This document shows, in pieces, positions 2,913 to 49,089 of a stretch of DNA of 54,401 bases. Under the pieces are notes generated by a model. The model was not told the origin of the DNA. It searched no databases and was given only the letters and a program-made list of their open reading frames with translations. Position 1 is the stretch's first letter; each line of letters begins with the position of its first letter. The position numbers and the translations under genes are program-made. Location of the stretch: assembly GCA_016207095.1 (NCBI GenBank), contig JACQQF010000009.1, positions 1-54,401 of the forward strand, written 5' to 3'. This stretch comes from Candidatus Methylomirabilota bacterium. Lineage in GTDB: Bacteria > Methylomirabilota > Methylomirabilia > Methylomirabilales > Methylomirabilaceae.

Positions 2913-4136
2913 TCAGCCGCGGATCGTCGGGCCGCCAGCACGTACTCGCAAGAGTAGGACCAAACCGAAGACGAAGAATGACCCGACGGCAAGAACGGCC
3001 GCTCGCTGGTTGCCTCCCGTCGCATGGGAGACCGCGCCGAATACCAGAGGGCCGAGGATGGAAGCCGACTTCCCGCAGAGCACATAGAATCCGAAGAACT
3101 CCCCCTCCCGTCCTCTCGGGATCAGGGTGGCCATGAAGGTCCGGCTCGCAGCCTGGATGGCGCCCAGGCTGCTCCCGGCGAAGACAGCGAGGAGGTAAAA
3201 TTGGCCCTGGGTCTGTACGAAGTAGGCGGCGATGACGACGCCGCTCCAGAGCGCCAGCATGCAGATCACCACGACCTTCGGCCCGAGCCGATCGGTGGGC
3301 CACCCCCAGAGGAAGGCCCCGATCAACGCCGTGACCTGTATGAGGATGTACAAGGTAATGAGCTGGGCGATCTCGAAGCCGAGGGTCTTGGCCGCGAAGA
3401 TCGAGGAAAAGAACACCACCGTGTTCACCCCGTCCTCATACAGGAAATATGCCCCCAGAAACCGCCTCAGGTCGCGGTATGAGAGGATGTCCTTCACGGT
3501 CTGCACCGTGCCCACAAGACCTTCCCGCATTGCCCGGGCAACTCCTAAGTGGCCCGGCCGATCGCGGGGCAGGGCCACGAACGACGGGATGGCAAACAGC
3601 CCGAAGAGGGCCGAGCTGGAAAGGAAGCACCAGGCCAAGGCGTTCGCCTTCGCGAACGGCAGCGCCACCAACAGGGCCACAATCGACCCCCCATAGCCGA
3701 CCGCAAAGCCGTAGGCCGAAATTCGGCCCTGCCACTGCCGAGATGCGATCTCCGGGAGGTAAGAGTTGTAGAAGACCATGGCCCCCTCGTATCCCACCAT
3801 GCCGACCACGCCCAGCACGAATCCCCGGACGATCATCCCTGGCTCTACACTGGCCATACATGCCGTCGCTCCGACGCTCAGGTAGGTGGTGATGAAGAAA
3901 AGGCGCTTACGGATCCCGGCGTGGTCCGCGATAGCTCCGAGGAGAGGGGAGGTCAACGCGACAATTGCCATCGAGGTGGAGACCAACCATCCCCACCAAA
4001 GATCGCCCTCTCCCCTCGCGTTGCCGACGACCGATTGGGCGTAGTAGGCGGAATAGATCGTCGCAGCGATAACGGCGGCGAAGGAGGAGTTGGCGAAATC
4101 GTAGAGCGCCCAGGCCAGTACCTGACGACGATTCAT
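2913..4136 (-). CDS. MFS transporter of the Atg22-like UMF1 family
   Basis: A 407-residue integral membrane protein with about twelve hydrophobic segments. The N-terminus MNRRQVLAWALYDFANSSFA is the characteristic opening of Atg22-like UMF1 permeases, whose yeast member exports amino acids from the vacuole; bacterial substrates are not established. The interior has MFS-type loops (for example WPTDRLGPK in the middle and EGEFFGFY in the C-terminal half). ATG codons at 4134-4136 and 4140-4142 are both usable; I took the one giving the family's standard N-terminus. It lies 110 bases upstream of tsaB and about 120 bases downstream of panE, so operon membership is uncertain. Confidence 0.85.
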   Translation of the reverse strand: MNRRQVLAWALYDFANSSFAAVIAATIYSAYYAQSVVGNARGEGDLWWGWLVSTSMAIVALTSPLLGAIADHAGIRKRLFFITTYLSVGATACMASVEPGMIVRGFVLGVVGMVGYEGAMVFYNSYLPEIASRQWQGRISAYGFAVGYGGSIVALLVALPFAKANALAWCFLSSSALFGLFAIPSFVALPRDRPGHLGVARAMREGLVGTVQTVKDILSYRDLRRFLGAYFLYEDGVNTVVFFSSIFAAKTLGFEIAQLITLYILIQVTALIGAFLWGWPTDRLGPKVVVICMLALWSGVVIAAYFVQTQGQFYLLAVFAGSSLGAIQAASRTFMATLIPRGREGEFFGFYVLCGKSASILGPLVFGAVSHATGGNQRAAVLAVGSFFVFGLVLLLRVRAGGPTIRG

Positions 4137-4260
4137 GGTCATCGCTCGGCCGAGAAAGGCTCCCAGGGAGGGGGGAGGACTGAGGGCAGGTCGTCGAGAG
4201 GGGAGTGCTCGACGGTTGGTGCAGGGTCGAGTGCGGAGGGGTCTCCGTCGAAAGAGGACA

Positions 4261-5250
4261 TCAGTGCCGGACCGCTTCGCTGACCCCTTTGACGAGACGA
4301 TAGATGAGATCGATCTTCGGCACCTGGATCTCCAGCCGCGCCGCCTCGCGGACCACATACCCGATGATCTCCTCGACCTCGGTCCGCTTGCCGCGCTCGA
4401 TATCCTGCAACATGGAGATCTTCACGTGTGTCATCCCGGCTGCCTCGATCTTCTGGGCATACTCCCGCACGAATGCGATGGCCTGCTCCAGCGGCTCCTC
4501 GCAGACGGTCTTCACCTCGAAGCCGGGAAAATCGTCCAGCGGGATCCCCTGGGCCTTGGCGAGCTGCGCGCACTCTCTGGTCAATTCGACGAACAGGGCC
4601 GCGAGCGTTCGATTCTTCAACACGCGGTGAAATTCGAGGCGGGTGAGGACGGAGAGGCCGGCTGATGGGAGGATGTGGTTCAGTTTGCACCAGGTCACGG
4701 AACGAATATCGGCGGCCGCCTGAATCCTGAGTCCCGCCTTGTCGAACATCTCAGCGACCGCCCCGACGCGATCCGTCTCACGACGATCGAACTCCCCCAC
4801 GTAGGTGGTCGAGGGCGCGGTATAGTGCACCTTGCCGGGGCCCGTCAGCGTCGCCCCGATCATGGTGGCGGCTCCGATCACCGACTCGGGTCCAAAGACC
4901 GCGCCGAGTGCCCTATCCTTGAGGACGCCGTTCTGGAGCGAGAGGGCACAGCGAACCCTCCCGCTCAGGTGGGCCACCCCCTTCAATGCCTCATCGGTGT
5001 CGTAGGTCTTGACGGTGAGGATCAGCAGGTCGGCGGCCGTCACGGTTTTCGGATTGTCGGTAGCCTGGACCTCCCTGATCAGATGGCGGCCATCCACCGC
5101 CGCGATCTCCAGGCCGCTGTCACGAATCGCTTTAACGTGGGCGGGCCTGGCGATCAGGGTGACGGGATAGCCGGCCTTGGCCAAGTACCCGCCGACCACG
5201 CTGCCAAGCCCTCCCGCACCGACGATCACCGTTCGCACCGCGTCACTCAT
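4261..5250 (-). CDS. panE: 2-dehydropantoate 2-reductase (ketopantoate reductase)
   Basis: A 329-residue NADPH-dependent reductase that makes pantoate for the coenzyme A pathway. The Rossmann motif GAGGLGSVVGG is at residues 11-21, the NAD(P)-loop region continues as AGYPVTLIARP, and the helical C-terminal domain contains WCKLNHILPSAG (about residues 187-198), where the conserved catalytic lysine of the ApbA/PanE family is expected. Length is typical. The start ATG overlaps the end of a possible 22-codon upstream ORF (5243-5311) that has a strong ribosome binding site. Some family members reduce other 2-oxo acids, and no other pantothenate gene is adjacent. Confidence 0.85.
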   Translation of the reverse strand: MSDAVRTVIVGAGGLGSVVGGYLAKAGYPVTLIARPAHVKAIRDSGLEIAAVDGRHLIREVQATDNPKTVTAADLLILTVKTYDTDEALKGVAHLSGRVRCALSLQNGVLKDRALGAVFGPESVIGAATMIGATLTGPGKVHYTAPSTTYVGEFDRRETDRVGAVAEMFDKAGLRIQAAADIRSVTWCKLNHILPSAGLSVLTRLEFHRVLKNRTLAALFVELTRECAQLAKAQGIPLDDFPGFEVKTVCEEPLEQAIAFVREYAQKIEAAGMTHVKISMLQDIERGKRTEVEEIIGYVVREAARLEIQVPKIDLIYRLVKGVSEAVRH

Positions 5251-44066: not shown

Positions 44067-44437
44067 CGGTGCCTCGCCTCAGTCGCCGAAATTGATTGAC
44101 CTTCGAGACGACGGACAGAACTGGCTTGTGTTATATGCCCTCATACCATGTCTTGATGCGGCTGTCAATCACACAACACCCTCTCCTCCCTGCTCTCGCC
44201 GCCTCGCCATTCCTTCCAAATGCGGTCTGTTTTGAAGCATTGAAAACGGAAGGGGGAGATCTGGGCAAAAAGCTCCTCTATAGCTTCTCTCTTTTGTCCA
44301 AGAAGCCCGCCTCCACGACTCTTTCTTGACAGATTGACAGCGGGACAAAAGATGACTATTCTCATGGGACTTTTGGGAAGCAAGGAGGGTTATCACTCGT
44401 GCCACGGCCGCAAAGACCGGCGGGTGTGCCCTGACCC
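44067..44437. other. Divergent intergenic region lipA / TPR membrane protein
   Basis: A 371-base gap between genes facing apart. The right part contains a good plus-strand promoter (44334-44362). The left part should hold the lipA promoter, but no clear -35/-10 pair was found. Purine-rich GGAAGGGGGAGAT near 44248 and pyrimidine runs near 44280 have no assigned role. No RNA gene was recognised. Confidence 0.5.
44334..44362 (+). promoter_or_regulatory. Putative promoter of the TPR membrane-protein gene
   Basis: TTGACA (44334-44339), exactly 17 bases, TATTCT (44357-44362). A second TTGACA starts eight bases earlier (44326). The start codon follows 75 bases later. This is the best sigma-70 match in the window. 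Confidence 0.6.
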
Positions 44438-46519
44438 ATGAGCCGCACGAGCAAGGCTCGCAAGCGAAAAGTGGTGCCCCCGCGTGAGGCCCGTGGGCCG
44501 GTCCCCCGCCCTTCAACCCAGCGCTGGGTCCACTGGCTCGTCCCCGTGCTGATCGCTTTCATCACCGTCGGCGCGTTCCTGCCCACGTTGCACAACCAGT
44601 TTGTCAGCTGGGACGATGATCAAACTTTCTTGAACAACCCTCACTACCGGGGGCTCGGCTGGCCCCAGGTCCGCTGGATGTGGACCACGTTTCACATGGG
44701 CCACTACGTCCCCCTGGCCTGGATGACCCTCGGCCTCGACTACCTGCTCTGGGGCATGAAGCCCTTCGGCTACCATCTGACCAGCCTGCTCCTGCACGCG
44801 ACCAATGCGGTGGTCTTTTACCTCGTGGCGCTCCGGATCCTGGGCGTGGCTCGGTCCGGGCCGGGGGAACGAGATAAACTGGGCCTGGTCGTTTCCGCCG
44901 CGTTCACCGCCCTCCTGTTCGCCCTTCATCCCCTGCGCGTCGAATCCGTCGCCTGGGCCACCGAGCGGCGGGATGTCCTCTCGGCGCTCTTCTACCTGTT
45001 AACGGTCCTCGTCTACCTCCGGACCTGCGAGCGGGGGGAGCGTGGCCGCGGGGCGTATTATTGGGGGGCCGTCGCCCTGTTCGCCTGTGCGCTGTTGTCC
45101 AAATCCATGGCCCTGAGCCTTCCGGTCGTGCTGCTGATCCTGGACGTCTATCCCCTCCGACGCCTCGGCGGGAGCACCGGGTGGTGGGGCGAGGACGCGC
45201 GCCGGGTCTACCTGGAGAAGCTCCCGTTCGTGCTGCTGGCCGCCGCGGTATCCGCCATCGCATTCATGGCGCAGCTTTCGGTCCACGCCGCGATCTCGCT
45301 GACTCAACTGAGCGCGCTCGGGAGGCTGTCGGTCGCGGTGTACGGCCTGAGCTTCTACCTTTGGAAGATGGTCCTGCCCGTGAACCTCTCGCCCCTCTAC
45401 GAGTTGGGCACGGTGAGCCCCTGGGCACCGCCGTTCCTCCTGAGCTACGGCGTGGTGCTCGCCCTCACCGCGCTCGCGCTGGCCTGCCGCCGCCGAGTGC
45501 CGGGGCTGCCGGCGGCCTGGCTCGCGTACGTGGTGATCCTGCTGCCGGTGCTCGGCATTTTTCAGAGCGGCCCACAGATTGCCGCGGATCGCTATACCTA
45601 CCAGGCCGGCCTGGGCTGGGCGCTCTTGGCTGGGGCCGCCCTGCTCTCCGGGTGGCGACGGCGCCCTGCCCTGGTGACCGGACCTGTCATCTGTGTCCTC
45701 CTTGGCTTGGGGGCTCTCACCTGGAACCAAGTCCACGTCTGGCACGACTCGGGGAACCTGTGGGCCCACGCCCTTGCTATAGACCCCACATCGTCCATCG
45801 CCCACAACAACTTGGGCAGTGCGCTCGCCGACCAGGGCAAGCTGCCTGAGGCGGTCGAACACTACCGGCAGGCCCTGCAGATCAAGCCGGACTACGCCGG
45901 CGCCCACAGTAACTGGGGTGTTGCGCTCGCTGACCAGGGCAAGCTGGCGGAGGCAATCGAGCACTACCGGCAGGCCCTGCAGATCAAGCCTAACCACGCC
46001 GGCGCCCACAACAACTGGGGCTTGGCGCTCGCCCGGCAGGGCAGGCTGGCGGAGGCAATCGAGCACTACCGGCAGGCCCTACAGATCAAGCCGGACCACG
46101 CCGGCGCCCACAACAACCTGGGCAATGCGCTCGCTGACCAGGGCAAGCTGCCCGAGGCGGTCGAGCACTACCGGCAGGCCCTGCAGATCAAGCCTGACTA
46201 TGCCGACGTCCACAGTAACTGGGGTGTTGCGCTCGCCGACCAGGGCAGGCTGGCGGAGGCAATCGAGCACTACCGGCAGGCCCTGCAGATCAAGCCGGAC
46301 TACGCCGGCGCCCACAACAGCTGGGGCGTGGCGCTCGCCCGGCAGGGCAGGCTGGCGGAGGCAATCGAGCACTACCGCCGAGCCGTAGAACTGAGACCAA
46401 ATTTTGAAGATGCCACCTCCAACCTGGTCAATACCCTCCTGAGGATACAAATGGGGTCAGACAAATCGTTGACCAAGCCTGACGCAGCCCTGAGTCGAAA
46501 GGGCAAAAAAGTAGAATAG
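44438..46519 (+). CDS. Polytopic membrane protein with C-terminal TPR repeats (GT-C/TMTC-like)
   Basis: A 693-residue protein. About ten membrane helices cover residues 30-440. The first loop has NQFVSWDDDQTFLNNPH, the acidic-pair loop typical of GT-C glycosyltransferases, and later FHMGHYVPLAWMTLGLDY and FALHPLRVESVAWATERRDV resemble TMTC/O-mannosyltransferase-like bacterial proteins. Residues about 455-660 are six 34-residue TPRs (consensus AHNNWGVALADQGRLAEAIE then HYRQALQIKPDY). A lipid-linked sugar transferase acting on proteins is a reasonable guess, not shown. The TPR part is repeated almost exactly at DNA level. Confidence 0.8.
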   Translation: MSRTSKARKRKVVPPREARGPVPRPSTQRWVHWLVPVLIAFITVGAFLPTLHNQFVSWDDDQTFLNNPHYRGLGWPQVRWMWTTFHMGHYVPLAWMTLGLDYLLWGMKPFGYHLTSLLLHATNAVVFYLVALRILGVARSGPGERDKLGLVVSAAFTALLFALHPLRVESVAWATERRDVLSALFYLLTVLVYLRTCERGERGRGAYYWGAVALFACALLSKSMALSLPVVLLILDVYPLRRLGGSTGWWGEDARRVYLEKLPFVLLAAAVSAIAFMAQLSVHAAISLTQLSALGRLSVAVYGLSFYLWKMVLPVNLSPLYELGTVSPWAPPFLLSYGVVLALTALALACRRRVPGLPAAWLAYVVILLPVLGIFQSGPQIAADRYTYQAGLGWALLAGAALLSGWRRRPALVTGPVICVLLGLGALTWNQVHVWHDSGNLWAHALAIDPTSSIAHNNLGSALADQGKLPEAVEHYRQALQIKPDYAGAHSNWGVALADQGKLAEAIEHYRQALQIKPNHAGAHNNWGLALARQGRLAEAIEHYRQALQIKPDHAGAHNNLGNALADQGKLPEAVEHYRQALQIKPDYADVHSNWGVALADQGRLAEAIEHYRQALQIKPDYAGAHNSWGVALARQGRLAEAIEHYRRAVELRPNFEDATSNLVNTLLRIQMGSDKSLTKPDAALSRKGKKVE
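45800..46411 (+). repeat. Six near-identical 102-bp tandem repeats encoding TPRs
   Basis: Each unit is 34 codons. Stretches such as GAGCACTACCGGCAGGCCCT recur unchanged or with single changes in five units; GGCGCCCACAACAAC-type starts are also shared. Nucleotide identity between units is much higher than protein constraint would need, implying recent duplication or gene conversion. Copy number is likely to vary between strains. Confidence 0.9.
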
Positions 46520-46781
46520 CCGTGATGGGCTCGGTCTCATCCCGTTGGCGACGATCGCCAGTCGCTCGTCCTTCGAACTCTTTGCAGCGCCAATCCCCTA
46601 ATCCATCGTGATGATGAGCCCCTTGGCTTCCGAGGTCGATCTGTTCGTATCGCGACATCGCCGATTCTGCGTTTCAGAACCGGCCCGCTCAACTTTTGAC
46701 TTGTCGTTTGGCGTATCTTTTGCTAGCGTAAATTTTCTGCTGAGCCGTGATGCTGTTTGGGAGCGTCCCCAAAGGATTCGC

Positions 46782-47957
46782 ATGTCCGATTTGCGGCAAT
46801 TGAGTGAGGTTCCCCACCTCGAGCCGGTGATCAAGGAGTATGAATCGGCTTTTAGGGTTGCCTTGCATCTGCATCGTCCCTCGCGAGCTCGTTCGAAGCC
46901 AAGGGATGACCCCGGCCTTCATGTGCACCTCTTCGCCCTTCCCAGCCGGTTTCCATTGACGGCGTTTATGGGCGAGACTCGGATGTTCATGCTTCCCATG
47001 GCATTCGGCCTCACGTTACGAGAGGGCGCTCGACAGGCGTTGACCCTCCCGAACCGGATGAAAAAGGGGGTGGTGCTGCGCGACGATGAGGGGAATGCGC
47101 TGGCGTTCCTGCACCAACGGAACATCTTCATCCTGCTCGATGTGATTGGCCAGACGAAGGATCTCGCCCCATTGCTTCTGAGAAGGCTTCTGGATCACAG
47201 TCTCGCAATGATGATGGCAGATCTCGCTGCGCAGAGCGGCCTGCATCCGGAGCGTCTCCAACTTATCCTGGTCGGGCAGCGGCGGACGACGGAACTCCAG
47301 GCATCGAGGTGGCAACAGACGCGAAGGGCCTCAGTTATGGGCCAGCTCAAGGAAGGGCGCGGTGGACGGATCGCGGACGAGATAGGTTTTTTGGAGTCCG
47401 AGATCCGATCAACCGAGGAGACGCTCGAGACTGCCTCCCGGCGAATCACCGCGGAAACCCGCCACTTGCAGGCCTGCCGACGCCGGCTCGGACAGCTCCG
47501 CGGGGAACTGGACGAAGGTGGGGCCGATCTCGCCCGCGAGCTGGACCGGCTGTCGGAACATCGCGACGTGGCTGAGGTGACGGGCCTCCCGGCGGGGCTT
47601 CGGATCATCACCCGACATCTACAGGTGGAACATCGTGGGAAGCAGTACGCGCTGGGGAGGTTCCAGGTCGATCTGCTCTACAACGGAGAGATCACGATCC
47701 ACAACCTGACCAACAGGCACGGGTACTATGACCACCCGCACATCTGGAATGGAACGCCCTGTCTGGGCAACGTCAGGGAAGGGCTGGCGAAGTTGATCGG
47801 CGAATTTCAACTCGCGGCTGCGTCCGAGGTCATCGTGGACTTCCTGAAGACGATCAATCATAAGGATTGGCACATCTCCATCGAGCATTGGGGATCAATA
47901 CCGGATGAGGGACGCCCCGCATCCCTCCCCCCTGGCGCCCCAAAACTCGTCCGGTAG
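46782..47957 (+). CDS. Coiled-coil protein with C-terminal E2 (ubiquitin-conjugating)-like domain
   Basis: I place the start at ATG 46782, with AAAGGA five bases upstream; in-frame codons back to 46608 cover the likely promoter region. The 391-residue protein has an unrecognised N-terminal domain (about 1-190), a charged coiled coil (about 195-265) and a C-terminal domain (about 267-370) with E2 features: strands LGRFQVDLLYNGEITIHNL, the flap HPHIWNGTPCLGN, and a following helix. In E2s the HPN...CL stretch carries the catalytic cysteine; here it is Cys327, with HPH at 318-320. The E1-like gene starts 12 bases later and the Ubl gene follows it. Confidence 0.78.
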   Translation: MSDLRQLSEVPHLEPVIKEYESAFRVALHLHRPSRARSKPRDDPGLHVHLFALPSRFPLTAFMGETRMFMLPMAFGLTLREGARQALTLPNRMKKGVVLRDDEGNALAFLHQRNIFILLDVIGQTKDLAPLLLRRLLDHSLAMMMADLAAQSGLHPERLQLILVGQRRTTELQASRWQQTRRASVMGQLKEGRGGRIADEIGFLESEIRSTEETLETASRRITAETRHLQACRRRLGQLRGELDEGGADLARELDRLSEHRDVAEVTGLPAGLRIITRHLQVEHRGKQYALGRFQVDLLYNGEITIHNLTNRHGYYDHPHIWNGTPCLGNVREGLAKLIGEFQLAAASEVIVDFLKTINHKDWHISIEHWGSIPDEGRPASLPPGAPKLVR

Positions 47958-47969
47958 GGACCGAAGACC

Positions 47970-48617
47970 ATGGATCTCTCGCGACAAATCGACCTGGTGG
48001 AACCGGAGGCCCTCGAGATCCCGGTGACCATGATCGGTTGCGGGGGGATCGGCTCCTTTTCCGCGCTGGCGCTGGCGAAGATGGGGTGCGTTCATCTGAC
48101 CGTCTACGATGACGATCGGGTGGAAGAGCACAACATCCCGAATCAGCTCTACCGGCTCGGCGATGTCGGCCAATTGAAGGTCATCTGCCTGGCCGAGATT
48201 ATCAAGGACTTCACTGGGACTGGCGTCGACGCGCGACCGGAGCGCGTGCAAGGCCAGCGGCTCCAGGGGATCGTCGTCTCAGGCGTGGACAGCATGGAGG
48301 CAAGGCGGCGTATCTGGGACCGATCGATCCGGTACAAGGCCGGCGTCACGGCCTACATCGACGCCAGGATGGGCGCCGAGGTAGCCAGGATTTACACCGT
48401 CCGGCCCGTGGATCCTGACCACGTCCGGTTGTACGAACGGACGCTCTACTCCGACGACGACGCGATGCAGGTTCCATGCACTGCCCAAGCGATCGTCTAC
48501 AACAGCTTCGGGATCGCCGGTCTTGTGGCAGGAGAGGTGAAGCGGGTCGCGATGGGCGAGGCGTGTCCATTCGAGATCATTTTCGATCAGAGAACGCTCA
48601 CCTTCCTCACCGCCTAG
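47970..48617 (+). CDS. ThiF/E1-like ubiquitin-activating-type enzyme
   Basis: A 215-residue single-domain E1-like protein. Nucleotide loop IGCGGIGSFSALALAKMG (about residues 22-39), then VYDDDRVEEHNIPNQLYR (about 45-62), which holds the acidic residue and the Asn/Gln/Arg set that bind ATP and magnesium. A candidate catalytic cysteine is Cys170 in MQVPCTAQAIVYNSFG. No zinc CxxC pairs and no rhodanese domain, unlike MoeB. It should adenylate the C-terminus of the small Ubl at 48772. The TAG stop (48615-48617) is the first three bases of an inverted-repeat element. Confidence 0.85.
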   Translation: MDLSRQIDLVEPEALEIPVTMIGCGGIGSFSALALAKMGCVHLTVYDDDRVEEHNIPNQLYRLGDVGQLKVICLAEIIKDFTGTGVDARPERVQGQRLQGIVVSGVDSMEARRRIWDRSIRYKAGVTAYIDARMGAEVARIYTVRPVDPDHVRLYERTLYSDDDAMQVPCTAQAIVYNSFGIAGLVAGEVKRVAMGEACPFEIIFDQRTLTFLTA

Positions 48618-48712
48618 TGCCGTTCCAACCGTTTGGGCAAAAGAATATTTGTTGGCGATTAGGCGAGAAGAGTTGGAACGGCATTAGCCGCAACAAGTTG
48701 GAACGGCACTAG
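48614..48712. repeat. Inverted-repeat element, family B, plus an adjoining extra end
   Basis: CTAGTGCCGTTCCAAC ... GTTGGAACGGCATTAG ... GTTGGAACGGCACTAG, the same layout as 25501-25599, including the doubled right end. Directly after it, sharing CTAG, comes CTAGTGCCGCACCAACTATT (to about 48728), a solitary left end that resembles another copy. The E1-like stop codon is inside the left end. The element separates the E1-like and Ubl genes. Confidence 0.9.
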
Positions 48713-48771
48713 TGCCGCACCAACTATTTCCCGTCACCGGGTGAACGCCCCGGAAGAAAAGGAGAGATGCG

Positions 48772-49008
48772 ATGACACTCGGAACCACGCAAGAGCAAGA
48801 GACCATCGTCGTGAAGGTCGTCACGCTTGGCAAGAGCACGCAGGAAGTCCGGCGGGACAGCCCCTTCAATCTGGACAGCCTTCTGAAAGAGCTGGGGGTG
48901 AACGGGGGTCTGGAGATACGGGTCAACGGCCAAACGGTGGAGCGAACCCGCCGTCTCGCGCACGGCGACACCGTCCTGATGGTCCCGAAGATCAAGGGGG
49001 GCCGGTAA
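48772..49008 (+). CDS. Small ubiquitin-like (ThiS/MoaD-type beta-grasp) protein ending in Gly-Gly-Arg
   Basis: A 78-residue protein. Strand-turn-strand IVVKVVTLGKSTQEVRR, helix DSPFNLDSLLKELGV and strand GLEIRVNGQTVERTRRLAHG with GDTVLMVPKIKGGR fit the ThiS/MoaD/ubiquitin fold. The end is Gly-Gly-Arg and not the exposed Gly-Gly of ThiS/MoaD. So either the arginine is removed, or conjugation uses a trimmed form, or the last residue blocks activity. AAGGAGA stands six bases before ATG. It is most likely the substrate of the adjacent E1-like and E2-like proteins; sulfur-carrier function is the alternative. Confidence 0.82.
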   Translation: MTLGTTQEQETIVVKVVTLGKSTQEVRRDSPFNLDSLLKELGVNGGLEIRVNGQTVERTRRLAHGDTVLMVPKIKGGR

Positions 49009-49089
49009 GGCGAGACCCTCACCCCACTCCCTCTCGCGGCCTGTTTTCGCTGGACCAGGCCCGAAAGAGAGCAGCCTGAGGATCGGGCC

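Follow-up and report, generated by a model that had tools for sequence, protein, structure and literature searches.

Several prokaryotic ubiquitin-like systems combine the parts considered here. In the portion of the 2006 survey by Iyer that is used here, bacterial operons that encode an E1, an E2, a Ubl and a JAB are assigned to types 6a-6e, of which 6a-6c fuse the E2 to the E1, 6d has an E2 without the classical His and 6e an E2 domain without the Cys; a lambdoid tail Ubl/JAB pair is also described there (PMC1779556). The Bil system (BilABCD) consists of a Ubl, an E2, a JAB and an E1, and in the excerpted description BilA comprises two Ubl domains and BilD an inactive and an active adenylation domain together with a Cys domain (PMC11354881). 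A Caldiarchaeum Rpn11 homologue trims pro-ubiquitin, the untrimmed form of which cannot be used by the E1, according to the excerpted report of that system (PMC5654768). The nearest phage modules are those of L089, L132-L154, crAss001 (gp79-gp76) and Flavobacterium phage FpV4.

We analyzed a stretch of 54,401 nucleotides (the window) that carries a compact set of E2-like, E1-like and Ubl genes (Table 1). Similar to the window, the phage Ubl-E2-JAB-E1 modules retain the E1 Cys170 in all 28 viral rows, and L089 and most of L132-L154 encode E2 and JAB proteins of the window families. With its E1 inside the viral group and its E2 and JAB belonging to the same families, the set falls with these phage-type modules, from which it differs in that the JAB of the window genome is unlinked and the window Ubl has a single domain. 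In crAss001 and FpV4 neither the E2 nor the Ubl is matchable to that of the window by profile.

The earlier note had likened the set to Bil and PRTRC, and this likeness survives as a functional one only, since the defining features of both fail. Bil shares functional parts with the window set but was rejected on the excerpted architectures, as the window Ubl is one domain of 78 aa and the E1 a single ThiF stretch of 215 aa. PRTRC shows ThiF homology to the window E1 (2.4e-16) but was also rejected, as the E1 reaches 59.8 bits against the PRTRC_ThiF cut-off of 144.75; comparison of the window E2 and Ubl with PRTRC B and C gave hhalign E values of at least 0.011 (two B) and 0.4 (one C), weak results from single sequences. 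CBASS type II and operon types 6a-6c were rejected because the window E2 and E1 are separate ORFs, and none of the 2006 operon types, in the portion used here, has the E2 form of the window (PMC1779556). The Caldiarchaeum E1/E2/RING system resembles the window in JAMM processing of a pro-Ubl, as proposed below (PMC5654768, in part); it differs in that we saw no RING gene next to the window set, and the window E2 has its N-terminal domain and HPH in place of HPN. In the open-licence literature, a scope outside which most subscription papers fall, no title among the matches listed described a Methylomirabilota ubiquitin-like system or such a phage module.

Layout and conservation of the gene set

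Table 1. Features of the gene set and its surroundings, in window positions.
Feature	Positions	Strand	Basis
E2-like gene, 391 aa	46782-47957	+	ORF confirmed
E2 N-terminal domain, residues 1-177	46782-47312	+	Profile comparison
E2 active-site flap HPHIWNGTPCLGN, residues 318-330	47733-47771	+	Alignment
Putative catalytic Cys327 codon of E2	47760-47762	+	Alignment
Minimal E1, ThiF family, 215 aa	47970-48617	+	Pfam; start 12 bases past E2 stop
Putative catalytic Cys170 codon of E1	48477-48479	+	Invariance
Ubl, SAMP2/ThiS-like beta-grasp, 78 aa	48772-49008	+	Pfam ThiS, PDB profile matches
Repeat element of ~99 bp between E1 and Ubl, 16-bp perfect inverted repeats	48614-48712	.	Sequence
~5 kb with TPR gene and E2-E1-Ubl, between lipA and yjbQ	44067-49089	.	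Synteny with sister genomes

The assignment of these genes as E1, E2 and Ubl in the earlier note is supported, and the three ORFs lie where that note placed them. Relative to the nearest relative, genome G028, dN/dS is 0.27 for the E2, 0.15 for the E1 and 0.22 for the Ubl. The three genes are real and conserved, and purifying selection acts on them.

The E1 matches Pfam ThiF (2.4e-19) over a single ThiF stretch, and its profile matches the PDB structures of PaaA, MccB, ThiF, UBA1 and the NEDD8 E1. Cys170 is present in 44/44 E1s compared (16 NC10, 28 viral), and the N of the HNxPNQ motif is kept in 39 of these rows. In PADLOC the E1 matches 32 families, all E1-E2 for the 25 listed, and these E1-E2 models match the E1 only and not the separate E2 ORF. 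A plasmid tblastn search with the E1 returned two PRTRC ThiF proteins, and the same search with the E2 gave no match.

Two further observations concern the DNA in and around the set. The 15-base end of the repeat element occurs 257 times in the genome with at most one mismatch, compared with once for a control; the E1-Ubl gap in G028 is only 57 bases. The TPR gene directly 5' of the set contains six register copies at 102-base spacing (45697-46489), which are 67-93% alike relative to the reference copy.

The E2-like protein

The E2 consists of an N-terminal domain (residues 1-177), a coiled coil (about 178-252) and a UBC-like domain (253-391). The long coiled coil and the unrecognized N-terminal domain of the earlier description both hold, the latter with no convincing match in Pfam. 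No Pfam family matches the window E2, and its 18 homologues give weak matches, mostly to coiled-coil families (best CREPT, 0.00076, 4 members). Similarly, a PDB search with the E2 profile found mainly coiled-coil proteins (best E 0.013), matched through the coiled coil of the E2, and a search with the UBC part returned two chance-level matches only (E 0.58 and 0.8).

All 18 rows of the E2 alignment keep Cys327, and in 19 E2 rows the HPH flap and Cys327 are both invariant, giving the UBC/E2 feature of HPN or HPH followed by a catalytic Cys. No loss of the cysteine, which the earlier note had named as grounds for abandoning its reading, was seen among the homologues that reach the catalytic stretch, a comparison made partly by eye. 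Against a profile of five human E2s, four of them as provisional sequences, the UBC domain scored 29.1 (hhalign P 33.7), with a strand, the HPH/HPN flap and the Cys in register; none of 300 column shuffles equaled this score, and the reversed profile gave 16.9. Comparison with UBE2D2 alone was weak (19.7, exceeded by 4/200 shuffles), as was that with the same five human E2s in another format (20.9, reached by 3/200), and the whole-E2 profile scored 23.8 against human E2s but in a different register. The C-terminal domain, for which the earlier note had named a fold unrelated to UBC as a further counter-case, lines up in register with UBC enzymes, but the controls are mixed and not every one was passed. 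We consider it a probable UBC domain. Prok-E2_B had no match in the class genomes, and this search is uninformative because the controls likewise gave none.

The Ubl tail and the JAB protease

The Ubl matches Pfam ThiS (2.9e-5; 24.9 bits, cut-off 22.5), and its profile finds PF1061 (1.6e-6) and SAMP2 (3.1e-6) as best matches in the PDB. It ends in KIKGGR, with Gly76-Gly77-Arg78 at the C-terminus. The absence of a JAB-type protease beside the set stands, as the one JAB-profile match of the genome sits on another contig. On the accompanying question of what trims the tail, no JAB adjoins the set, but contig C23 of the window genome (G000) encodes a JAB of the same family with an intact JAMM motif. 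Because of this JAMM protease, and because a JAB lies inside four relative loci, the set is not JAB-less. Homologues of the C23 JAB in the same genus are 88% (G023) and 73% (G028) identical, and ten of ten aligned JABs conserve the JAMM residues. In the PDB, the JAB profile best matches the N11-like protease 6fjv (E 0.0011), which we take to be from Caldiarchaeum. The C23 JAB is a candidate to trim the Ubl Arg.

Seventeen genomes encode a Ubl, and all 11 in which residues follow the Gly-Gly also have a JAB, a count in which the G016 Ubl, which reaches a contig end, is scored as tailed. The Ubl ends at the Gly-Gly in the other six, of which three (G011, G013 and G014) are without a JAB (tail test p 0.029, with genomes that are not independent). 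As these three belong to one genus, the association between tail and JAB amounts to little more than one event. In L096, L097, L098, L099 and L101 the unlinked JAB has a transporter-like gene of one family as its neighbor, which on our reading of the sequence would encode an MFS protein.

Distribution in the class

We surveyed 95 NC10/Methylomirabilota genomes and found an E2 homologue in 21, a JAB of the family in 19, and the E1 and the Ubl in 17 each. G001 is counted for E2 on an N-terminal stretch only (1.3e-5), and one of the 17 E1s is cut by a contig end. E1s were counted below 1e-15, with the next match at 2.5e-14 and some ThiF match in 88/95 genomes; Ubls were counted below 1e-30, with the next at 7.2e-10 and some match in 24/95. 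The E2 occurs with the E1 in 17 genomes and without it in four, some of them incomplete, and the E1 never occurs without the E2. Similarly, 18 genomes have both E2 and JAB, three the E2 alone and one the JAB alone. A single strict E2 pattern run over genome contigs matched 16 stretches, 11 of which are relatives, all of NC10/Methylomirabilota/Methylomirabilis.

The earlier note had proposed a survey for co-occurrence of the three genes; an E1 and a Ubl adjoin the E2, in the order E2-E1-Ubl, in 14 of the 26 extended relative loci. In four of these 14 (L035, L036, L038 and L048) an intact JAB separates the E2 from the E1, and in L037 an E2-JAB pair runs to the contig end. L049 and L052-L056 have E2-JAB without an E1. 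Gene order is preserved across several families of the class.

Some of these loci have features of their own. L051 (2570-3424) joins the N-terminal part of the E2 in frame to a JAB, with the UBC part absent. An uncharacterized family of ~280 aa (NLWNV or NLFNV, then CRACL) is encoded 3' of E2-JAB in L052 (11054-11902), L053 and L054, with two copies each in L053 and L054, and it has no profile match to the E2s. Family C86, near some E2-JAB loci, is E2-like by eye and was rejected for lack of profile support.

Viral relatives

A scan of viral contigs with one E2 sequence gave no relative; the E2 alignment found L089 and the E1 found 23 contigs. By NC10 profiles, L089 encodes an E2 (2.2e-18), a JAB (2.5e-16) and an E1 (1.3e-37) consecutively, and a Ubl-like gene without a profile match (0.022). 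Up to 5.5 kb from the E1, the 23 contigs contributed 484 plus-strand ORFs, which were tested by hhalign with NC10 profiles. At P of at least 90, an E2 and a JAB were each found in 20/23, and at P of at least 75 a Ubl was found in 10/23; the contigs are partly non-independent, the L144 and L145 E1s being identical. The exceptions are L145, which is truncated, L153 and L154, with no E2 and a weak JAB only, and L151, with no JAB. Each of the 20 viral E2s shows the catalytic Cys (four by eye), and three contigs encode tandem Ubls (by eye). The L132 E1 is 52% identical to that of the window. L132 also encodes, upstream of its main E2 with one gene intervening, a second UBC-like protein (3891-4646; P 82.8 over 36 columns, FVCLGN), the sole match at P of at least 75 outside the module parts in the 23 contigs.

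We scanned ten neighbor proteins from six viral contigs against PHROGs. Six match nuclease, helicase or polymerase families (L133, L144, L146 and L150), and the remaining four were assigned to unknown families, a lipoprotein or a cobalamin-type protein, or had no match. Replication or repair genes adjoin the module in four of the six contigs tested.

Among annotated phages, the E1 matches 79 of 50,697 records, including 29 Flavobacterium and 29 Bacteroides phages. In each of the three of these genomes that were inspected, a JAB-like gene with hhalign E 2e-4 to 1.5e-5 and P 47-79 sits directly 5' of the E1, with a Ubl-like gene and a His/Cys-bearing gene further 5', neither matched by profile. 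A Xanthomonas phage encodes an 892-aa E2-like protein (3.2e-5) ahead of its E1. None of the annotated phages searched was matched by the L089 E2, the L132 JAB or the L142 E2. Genes annotated as "thiamine biosynthesis protein" or "E1 enzyme family protein" in L091 and L093 (crAss001, bajarodcaudo virus 1) are E1s related to the NC10/viral group, and each has a JAB-like gene immediately 5'.

Descent and the lipA-yjbQ site

In a midpoint-rooted tree of 49 E1s, which has some long branches, the viral and NC10 sequences group apart from those of PRTRC and other ThiF proteins (99/93). All 16 NC10 E1s fall in a single clade (99/96) that lies within the viral rows, next to L132 (94/94). The E2 N-terminal domain has 69 columns in common with the L132 E2 (score 36.6, reached by 0/300 shuffles) and no convincing similarity to other viral E2s. 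Among the NC10 genomes, viral contigs, annotated phages and plasmids searched with the E1, the closest kin found are viral, a kinship that the earlier note had not suspected. As these relatives sit in virus genomes, an ancestral uptake from phage is suggested, and within a cellular E1 and JAB survey confined to NC10, capture from phage by NC10 would be the simplest reading.

The nesting of the NC10 E1s among viral E1s would also fit a decaying prophage remnant that has no function in the cell. We regard this as highly improbable given dN/dS values of 0.15-0.27 and the order preserved in several families of the class; in addition, no phage family was found among the 11 flanking proteins compared with Pfam, two of which had no match at 1e-10. 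The set is most likely functional.

The site itself bears on two other explanations. The gene yjbQ is present in 14/15 genomes of the genus, and in five of eight fetched stretches (L173, L174, L175, L179 and L180) lipA and yjbQ are adjacent, 130-155 bases apart; the two genes are not neighbors in L176, and the L177 and L178 stretches gave no lipA. From the E2 onward, G028 keeps synteny with the window. The order yjbQ, FdhD, nuoI, nuoB is the same in sister genomes without the set.

One explanation is that the ThiS/MoaD-like and ThiF-like proteins form a sulfur-carrier pair that serves a cofactor or the thiolation of tRNA, in which case the E2-like protein would be an accessory. Although the Ubl matches the ThiS and MoaD families and FdhD and yjbQ are nearby, this proximity is incidental, because the order is kept in sister genomes without the set. 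The set is not the MoaD/ThiS gene beside cofactor genes that the earlier note had offered as a counter-case, and a ThiS/MoaD cofactor locus was rejected. The co-occurrence of the E1 with a JAMM protease and with an E2 that bears a Cys, the three further ThiF-family genes in the window genome and the absence of a Pfam rhodanese domain on the E1 also argue against sulfur transfer, which we judge improbable.

Cellular anti-phage defense, in which the Ubl would be conjugated to phage proteins in a Bil-like manner, would account for the patchy distribution of the set (2/15 genomes of the genus) and for the lipA-yjbQ site without it in relatives, and the Bil system is known with the same kinds of parts (PMC11354881, in part). 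However, PADLOC gives the E2 only LmuB (0.016, over the coiled coil) and the Ubl nothing, the same 11 flanking proteins include no defense family, and many relatives are phage-encoded, which fits a viral benefit better. A defensive role appears doubtful to us.

Discussion

Collectively, these comparisons make it quite likely that the set is a working ubiquitin-like conjugation system of a lineage common in phage genomes. The best reading of the sequences would be that NC10 bacteria acquired a complete phage-type Ubl-E2-JAB-E1 system. In the mechanism we propose, the C23 JAB, encoded at its unlinked locus, would cut off the C-terminal Arg and expose the Gly-Gly. To judge from its family and the invariance of its cysteine, the E1 would then adenylate the Ubl and load it on Cys170, from which it would move to Cys327 of the E2. 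The E2 N-terminal domain and coiled coil may replace an E3, so that the Ubl would be placed on lysines of bound targets, and the JAB may also take the Ubl off again. The targets are probably picked by the N-terminal domain. That they are DNA-handling proteins is a guess, made because four of the six viral contigs tested carry adjoining replication or repair genes.

The interest of the set lies mainly in its viral kinship. The prokaryotic ubiquitin-like systems known so far would gain a phage-borne branch, one that would take in the E1s of crAss-like gut phages now annotated as thiamine biosynthesis proteins, and the set provides a minimal E1 and an E2 that possibly needs no E3. It also raises the question of which proteins phages or their hosts tag with the Ubl, perhaps during DNA replication. 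We give an even chance to the broader view that there is a distinct lineage of complete systems of a Ubl (in some cases tandem Ubls), an E2 that brings its own targeting domain, a JAMM protease and a minimal E1, widely phage-borne beside replication genes, of which NC10 kept one phage copy. If NC10 did keep such a copy, ubiquitin-type signaling would have moved from viruses to cells.
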